Assembly: GCA_001303705.1 (NCBI GenBank)
Contig: LJUI01000081.1
Coordinates: 1 to 10,742, forward strand
Reading direction: 5' to 3'
Origin: a candidate division TA06 bacterium SM23_40
Lineage (GTDB): Bacteria; LJUI01; SM1-40
DNA: 10,742 nt
Below the pieces are notes generated by a model. That model searched no databases and had not been told where the DNA came from. It saw only the letters and a list, made by a program, of their open reading frames with translations. Position 1 is the stretch's first letter. Each line of letters begins with the position of its first letter. This document shows, piece by piece, positions 2,989 to 7,574 of this stretch. Made by a program: the position numbers and the translations under genes.

Positions 2989-3017
2989 ATGACACCCTTG
3001 CTCAAAGGGGGTACACT
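2989..3017 (+). promoter_or_regulatory. predicted promoter of the first two beta-helix genes
   Basis: ATGACA (2989-2994, five of six bases) is followed after 17 nt by TACACT (3012-3017). A start near 3024 gives a leader of about 180 nt. A second -10-like box, TATGAT (3027-3032), lacks a -35 at a sensible distance. The pyrD promoter (2821-2849) diverges about 140 bp away. Confidence 0.42.
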
Positions 3018-3203
3018 CAACGTGAGTATGATATTCGCGAGATTTCTGCTCGAATCAGGACTGGCAGAGGGCGCCCGGTGGCCTCGGGAATAGGCGGCAC
3101 CGCAACAGCTCGAGGGTGGGTTATTCGAGAGCGACACCGAGCGTCACTAGGTGAGGGGTCGTTCTTTTCTTTTTCTGGCTAGATTGACGAGAGGGAGGAT
3201 ACC
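3018..3203 (+). promoter_or_regulatory. leader of the first beta-helix gene
   Basis: This untranslated stretch holds a small hairpin near the predicted transcript start, with CGAG (3038-3041) pairing CTCG (3049-3052) and flanking ATT/AAT. Further down, TCAC-TAG-GTGA (3144-3154) precedes a pyrimidine run at 3162-3176. A short stem followed by a T-rich tract could act as an attenuator, but the stem has only four pairs. The Shine-Dalgarno GAGGGAGG stands five bases before the ATG at 3204. Confidence 0.3.
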
Positions 3204-5957: not shown

Positions 5958-5986
5958 TTGACACCGCCGAGGATTGATGATATAAT
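5958..5986 (+). promoter_or_regulatory. perfect consensus sigma-70 promoter
   Basis: TTGACA (5958-5963), a 17-nt spacer and TATAAT (5981-5986) match the consensus at all twelve positions with the optimal spacing. A run of five T lies just upstream of the -35. The start should be near 5992-5994. It drives the structured leader and paralogue 3, about 337 nt downstream. A perfect promoter is uncommon for an ordinary gene and suggests strong expression that is controlled later, or a stable RNA. Confidence 0.85.
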
Positions 5987-5992
5987 TCCCAA

Positions 5993-6329
5993 AACGGTGA
6001 GCAATGGTTGCTCCGGCATATTCCCGGCGATGGCCGGGGGATGTGCCGAAAGAGATACTAGACATAGCGGTGTGGAAGGGCGGTGGTTGTACGGTGGCGG
6101 ATGAGGTGAGGGGTATGCCGGGAGCCGACAAAGCAGTCGGCTCCGGTAAAGAGAATGTTGTGACGGTGAACGGCTACACGCCTGGAGCGTAGTAGTGAGG
6201 GCTCCGAGGATGTAGCCGTGTGTATTTGGCGTTACTGGGGGAGCCGCGCGAGGGAGGTGCGGAGGGGAATCTAGTAGGCCGGGAGACACACATCGTCACC
6301 TAAACGTGCATCAAAAGGAGGGTGGCTCG
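5993..6329 (+). ncRNA. structured leader or small RNA candidate
   Basis: The expected transcript has four strong local structures. Hairpin A is GAGCAA (5999-6004) with TTGCTC (6008-6013). Hairpin B abuts it, with CGGCA/TGCCG (6014-6018, 6044-6048) around CCCGGC/GCCGGG (6023-6028, 6033-6038) and a GATG loop. Hairpin C is GGAGCCGAC/GTCGGCTCC (6121-6129, 6136-6144), which extends past a one-base bulge to 6116 and 6148. Hairpin D is a 9-bp stem (6170-6178, 6211-6219) enclosing GGAGC/GCTCC (6184-6188, 6201-6205), with CCT/AGG added across a bulge. Between B and C is a purine-rich, poorly paired tract. The end carries the AAGGAGG of the next gene, and I see no terminator, so read-through is likely. 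It resembles no riboswitch, tmRNA, 6S, SRP or RNase P RNA that I recognise. The 62-codon frame at 6004-6192 lacks a ribosome site. Confidence 0.55.
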
Positions 6330-7574
6330 ATGAGATCTGTGACAGTTCTTGTGAGCGCAGCGTTGGTACTTGGGTTGAGCGCAGCCGCGTCGGCGACGAT
6401 TCTGAACGTGCCGGCGGACTACCCGACCATTCAGTCCGGAGTAGATGCCGCGGCGGATGGCGACACCGTCCTGGTATCGTATGGTCTGTACACCGGCCCC
6501 GGAAACGTGAACATCGATTTCGAGGGAAAGGCGATCGTGGTCATGTCGGAGTGCGGGCCCGAAGTGACTATCATCGACTGCGATGGGACCTGTCGCACCG
6601 GGTGCCGTGGGTTCTACCTCCACAGCGGGGAAGGCCCCAACTCGGTAATTCAGGGGTTCACGATTCGGAACGGCCACGTATTCGGCGCATGGCCATTGTC
6701 CACCGGGGGTGGTATCCTGTGCGATGGAGCCTCCCCGACTATCATTGGGAATATCGTGACCTGCAATGTGGCGGACGGTGCAGGAGGTGGGATCTCATTC
6801 CGCAACTCTTCCTCAGTAATGGTGGGCAACACAATCAGGTGGAATACGACAGCGTACGATGGTGGTGGGATCTTCGCTGAGGGCTCGTCCCTGGTCATGG
6901 ATCGCAACACGATCGCAGGAAACGTAGCCGACAAGGGCGGTGGGATCTTCTGCGCTGCAGTCTCTTCAGCCACAGTCATCAATTCGATCTTCTGGGGGAA
7001 TGAGGGTGCTCCGGGTCCCTCGATCCACAAGACCGGCGGGAGCACTGTTACTGTCACCTACTCGGATGTGGAGGGCGGCTGGACGGGTGAGGGGAACTTC
7101 TTTCTCCCTCCGATGTTCGTGCTCTGGGACAAACGCGACGTACGCCTCCTCTGGGAATCGCCCTGTATAGACGCGGGGCACCCGGACTCTCTGGATCCCG
7201 ACGGCACACGCTGTGATATGGGGGCACACTTCTTCAATCAGGATGATTATCTCACGCTCTACCTGACTCCCGACGCAGCGGCGGTACCACAGGGTGGGCA
7301 GCTCGGGGTGACATACACGGTCATAAACCGCTGGGCGCAGCCCGAGACATTCTGGGTGCTCACGGAAGTCATTCCCCCTGTAGGAGCGCCGTTGACAGTA
7401 GTCGGCCCGGGCCAGTATGCCATCCCGGCAGGATTTACCGCGCAGCAGTATCTCGAGCACCATGTGCCGCCGATGGCCCCGCTCGGGGACTACTTATACT
7501 ACGCGAGAATCGGAACGCCGCCGGCGAACCTGTATGACCAGGATCGCTTCCTGTTCACCATTACAGGGCCCTAG
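6330..7574 (+). CDS. secreted right-handed parallel beta-helix protein, paralogue 3
   Basis: The product has 414 residues from the ATG at 6330, chosen because AAGGAGG (6312-6318) lies upstream and a typical signal peptide follows (cut near ASA, residues 21-23). A GTG at 6306 would put eight polar residues ahead of it. The mature protein opens with NVPADYPTIQSGVDAAADGDTVL. Four GGGI rungs start at residues 126, 152, 178 and 203, a regular 25-26 residue helical repeat. The junction CIDAGHPDS...DPDGTR...DMGA and the tail (305-414) match the other two. The middle differs most, with several cysteines around residues 75-95 (ECGP, DCDGTCRTGCRG) that may form disulfides after export. Unlike the other pair, it has its own strong promoter and a long structured leader. 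The ligand is unknown. Confidence 0.9.
   Translation: MRSVTVLVSAALVLGLSAAASATILNVPADYPTIQSGVDAAADGDTVLVSYGLYTGPGNVNIDFEGKAIVVMSECGPEVTIIDCDGTCRTGCRGFYLHSGEGPNSVIQGFTIRNGHVFGAWPLSTGGGILCDGASPTIIGNIVTCNVADGAGGGISFRNSSSVMVGNTIRWNTTAYDGGGIFAEGSSLVMDRNTIAGNVADKGGGIFCAAVSSATVINSIFWGNEGAPGPSIHKTGGSTVTVTYSDVEGGWTGEGNFFLPPMFVLWDKRDVRLLWESPCIDAGHPDSLDPDGTRCDMGAHFFNQDDYLTLYLTPDAAAVPQGGQLGVTYTVINRWAQPETFWVLTEVIPPVGAPLTVVGPGQYAIPAGFTAQQYLEHHVPPMAPLGDYLYYARIGTPPANLYDQDRFLFTITGP

Follow-up and report, generated by a model that had tools for sequence, protein, structure and literature searches.

A recurrent structured leader upstream of secreted beta-helix genes in the candidate division TA06 bacterium SM23_40

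Ahead of a gene for a secreted beta-helix protein, the 10,742-nt stretch of contig LJUI01000081.1 analyzed here (hereafter, the window) carries a sigma-70-type promoter and a predicted, heavily structured 5' leader (Table 1). This leader belongs to what we call class A, a family of leaders that has not been described before but is of a familiar general type. In the 2.88-Mb genome, class A is represented by at least five leaders and, on contig C162, by a sixth, weaker core. The reading we favor, with confidence that is evenly divided, is that the promoter and the 337-nt leader form one of at least five paralogous modules acting in cis on the mRNAs of beta-helix proteins. A strong sigma-70-type promoter would produce the transcript, whose leader carries, counted back from the start codon, a core hairpin at ~160 nt and the element GAC-N9-10-TCRC at ~45 nt. 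The leader may then set the translation or the lifetime of the surface-protein messages in cis, most likely by being bound by a common trans-acting factor.

Table 1. Positions in the window of the promoter, the class A leader with its parts, the gene behind it, and the class B leader
Feature	Position	Strand	Basis or remark
Sigma-70-type promoter, TTGACA-N17-TATAAT	5958–5986	+	12 of 12 consensus positions; predicted start ~5993
Predicted 5' leader of 337 nt, rich in G (0.40; C 0.19)	5993–6329	+	Fold z −6.4, composition, paralogous leaders
5' hairpin, CGGCATAT..ATGTGCCG	6014–6048	+	Three of the five leaders retain it in part; those on C11 and C4 pair otherwise
Second hairpin, GGAGCCGAC/GTCGGCTCC	~6118–6146	+	Large stem not conserved in sequence in the paralogue leaders
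Conserved core hairpin, 50 nt, two-tiered, outer helix ACGGCTAC/GTAGCCGT	6170–6219	+	Hallmark of class A; alignments, covariance model R1
Weaker hairpin	~6244–6262	+	Seen in the leader fold
Conserved 3' element, GACACACATCGTCAC (GAC-N9-10-TCRC)	6285–6299	+	~45 nt (43–46) before the ATG in five of five leaders
Shine-Dalgarno, AAGGAGGG	6315–6322	+	Read from the sequence
Secreted right-handed beta-helix protein, 414 residues, N-terminal signal-like sequence	6330–7574 (ATG 6330)	+	Pfam Beta_helix
Class B leader, before the first beta-helix gene	3030–3181 (at widest 2989–3181)		Nine strong genome copies, covariation

The original prediction, made on this DNA by eye, had described a perfect-consensus promoter with a 17-nt spacer, and this was verified at every base. 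From base composition, 0.0005 such sites would be expected in the window. Since the whole genome contains 13 perfect promoters with spacers of 16–18 nt, versus 0 for a reversed-pattern control, the organism uses the sigma-70 consensus. The transcription start near 5993 is predicted from the promoter. The gene behind the leader has dozens of paralogues in the genome, and the family is general beta-helix; a NosD identity was rejected, as gene 1 reached 25 bits with the NCBIfam NosD model against a cut-off of 300.

The same prediction had spoken of a densely structured leader, and its hairpins are indeed found in the computed fold. The leader has an MFE of −144.3, compared with a mean of −116.4 (sd 4.4) for 100 dinucleotide shuffles, none of which was as stable. 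As controls, coding segments from the window's three beta-helix genes gave fold z scores of −1.9 to +0.9. When the class A leaders were compared (n = 5), all were more stable than their shuffles (z −1.5 to −5.8), two of them weakly so (−1.5 and −1.9). The two-tiered stem is conserved in sequence in the paralogous leaders, unlike the second hairpin. An Rfam covariance search returned no relevant match, even at E values up to 1–2, so the leader, unclassified by eye, stays so.

A BLAST-type search of the organism's own genome showed that the middle of the leader recurs twice on contig C185, and further copies were sought by BLAST and then with R1, the covariance model of the core. Five of the upstream regions of ~50 beta-helix paralogues, collected and compared all versus all, are class A: two of them lie on C185, and one each in the window, on C11, and on C4. 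Each of these full leaders begins at a TTGACA or TTGACG box at the equivalent place and precedes a secreted beta-helix gene, with all five intact copies on the sense (+) strand, a recurrence before related genes that fits the general kind of cis-regulatory leader RNAs. The two C185 copies are neighbors, each with its own TTGACA promoter before a beta-helix paralogue. The C162 core, which was absent from model building, was recovered by the covariance model with 44.5 bits (E 8e-9); this copy is cut off by the end of its contig and lacks a clear −35 box.

The core consists of an 8-bp outer helix, 34 nt between its arms, and within these a less regular inner helix, and it is gapless across the six copies. 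Its mean pairwise identity is 0.70, versus 0.50–0.58 for the other leader segments compared. The distance from the core to the ATG is 157–162 nt in all five intact leaders, while that from the promoter to the core varies from 212 to 239 nt; a core held in place relative to the ATG, with a varying promoter distance, is what an element acting on the mRNA should show. The 3' element is confined to the five class A leaders among all the upstream regions collected, and these leaders have a similar composition (G 0.37–0.41, C 0.19–0.23). The original prediction had also proposed an undescribed cis-regulatory RNA. In its descriptive part, and in its caution, this holds, given at least five leaders that are noncoding, with a fixed ATG distance and no Rfam match, while for the mechanism our confidence is even.

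The core could instead be a DNA operator, a double-stranded site where a regulator binds downstream of the promoter and of which the RNA hairpin is a by-product. We give this a minor chance of being right. The inverted 8-bp arms are almost invariant, their gapless 34-nt spacing is exactly constant in the six copies and also fits an operator of two half-sites, and they lie 42 bp apart from center to center, equal to four helical turns. An operator, however, sits poorly with a promoter distance that varies by 27 nt when the ATG distance is fixed, and with an inner helix that is still paired in most copies. In the core as a whole, 92.6% of the cells are paired, versus 35–44% with the strands slid. 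G-U changes exceed A-C mismatches (8 vs. 2 columns, p 0.055), which favors an RNA read from the + strand. Covariation, the test named in the original prediction, was not above that of shuffles in the core (two of 18 pairs changed on both sides; 148 of 500 shuffles scored equally high), a result that reflects an almost invariant outer helix and a sample of just six sequences.

That the leader is a riboswitch or attenuator, in which binding of a ligand controls the gene, we consider improbable. A long structured leader does precede the gene, and the class B leader of the same window is attenuator-like in build. On the + strand of the class A leader (5993–6329), however, no terminator was found, including between the core and the ribosome-binding site. 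When pairing of the core with the Shine-Dalgarno and with the region after it was compared with swapped leaders, the true combinations were no better, and no pairing mutually exclusive with the Shine-Dalgarno region was seen. The core also has no strongly conserved single-stranded pocket.

Other structures considered for the core were rejected. In each class A leader, the core loop and the GTCAC element share complementary stretches of 4–6 nt, but for a pseudoknot the matched leaders did not outperform swapped ones (71 of 120 permutations did as well). A wider pairing between the core and the tail ranked first of 120, yet the core positions involved differ in each leader and do not make one helix. 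A short coding frame was likewise dismissed: a single frame is open through the six copies, without a shared start codon, and in three of the five leaders it meets a stop at the core or within two codons before it.

Plain duplication, in which promoter, leader, and gene were copied jointly and the leader merely carries the message, is similarly improbable. The copies do lie within one genome, two of them adjacent on C185, and because of this their likeness is partly due to shared ancestry. Against it, the identity of the core is well above that of the adjacent leader segments, and the leader classes, class A included, are scattered over the protein tree and do not follow it, a tree that for these repeat proteins is weakly resolved. 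Finally, a discrete small RNA gene located by chance before a beta-helix gene would suit the strong promoter and stable fold, but is highly improbable, and the small RNA reading into the gene that had been suggested at the outset has no support either: a terminator is absent from the stretch that separates the core from the ribosome-binding site, and the ATG distance of the element is fixed at five loci.

The class B leader, located before the first beta-helix gene of the window, is unrelated to the class A leader, and the case for it as an attenuator-type RNA is stronger than that for the class A finding. Its covariation is significant, with seven pairs changed on both sides and none of 500 shuffles as high. 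At its 3' end is a terminator-like stem, GAGCGACACC..GGGGTCGTTC, followed by a U-run. The conserved CGGTG loop region is complementary over seven pairs to the 5' arm of the terminator; this complementarity is 100% kept and, being nearly invariant, demonstrates compatibility rather than covariation. Two copies of class B were also observed before genes for secreted-type proteins that are not beta-helix proteins: at L087 1501–1651 (C160:20970) the product is a secreted protein of FG-GAP-like type, and at L086 1501–1650 (C185:3401) it is lipoprotein-like, with 310 residues and no Pfam match.

When 385 further genomes from the same domain were searched with the class A covariance model, no match had an E value below 0.08. 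The source genome is the sole member of its phylum among the genomes searched, and because these include no close relative, the absence of class A elsewhere says little about its true distribution. For class B, a search of 386 genomes gave as best match outside the own genome L098 (E 0.0009), which shows none of the landmarks of class B and seems fortuitous. The Poribacteria genome encoding the nearest foreign protein had no match to the class B model.

Long structured 5' UTRs are familiar from genes for abundant surface proteins, such as E. coli ompA and the S-layer genes, usually with one such leader per genome. The class A modules resemble them in having a strong promoter, a long stable leader, and a secreted or surface product, and differ in that several leader families here serve dozens of paralogues. 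Comparative genomics has also yielded candidate cis-regulatory leader motifs (Weinberg et al. 2010, PMC2864571). Like class A, those motifs are structured intergenic elements of unknown function, some of them from a single species (the Solibacter-1 motif, for example, is listed for Solibacter usitatus only; PMC2864571). Class A differs from them in matching no Rfam model and in that its intact copies all precede one paralogous surface-protein family. The epsC/EAR element of Bacillus exopolysaccharide operons (PMC2864571) is likewise a conserved 5' UTR RNA before genes for cell-surface products; in contrast to it, class A shows no sign of antitermination, and the two have no sequence or model match.

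Class A probably serves a set of surface proteins as a control element that is ordinary in appearance, though undescribed. The analysis adds at least two leader RNA families that had not been described, class A and the better supported one at 3030–3181, which together stand before a dozen or more surface-protein genes in one poorly sampled bacterium. If this is confirmed, RNA leaders, instead of or besides promoters, would select which surface-protein paralogues are made. More tentatively, it is possible that the unrelated leader families (A; B, with an attenuator-like pseudoknot opposed to a terminator; and a smaller class C) are interchangeable modules. Through them, the secreted beta-helix paralogues, which number in the dozens, would be sorted along with some other surface proteins into separate expression groups under RNA control.

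Class C, which like class B is a further leader class found ahead of beta-helix genes, was observed in three copies, upstream of the genes L051-390, L052-8022, and L059-4246. A terminator-like hairpin, GACCTGAGC..GCTCGGGTC, is common to the copies, and a U-run comes after it in part of them. Just before class B promoters, another hairpin, GAGCTGAGGCGATC..GATCGTCTCAGCTC, is repeated (L009 5480–5650, L086 1400–1460, and L087 1400–1450), which is probably the terminator of the upstream operon. In addition, L093 1501–1658 (C2:2173–2330) matches class B weakly (E 0.0016), has a terminator-like end, GACGACACC..GGTGTCGTTTCTTTTT, and is possibly a diverged class B copy.
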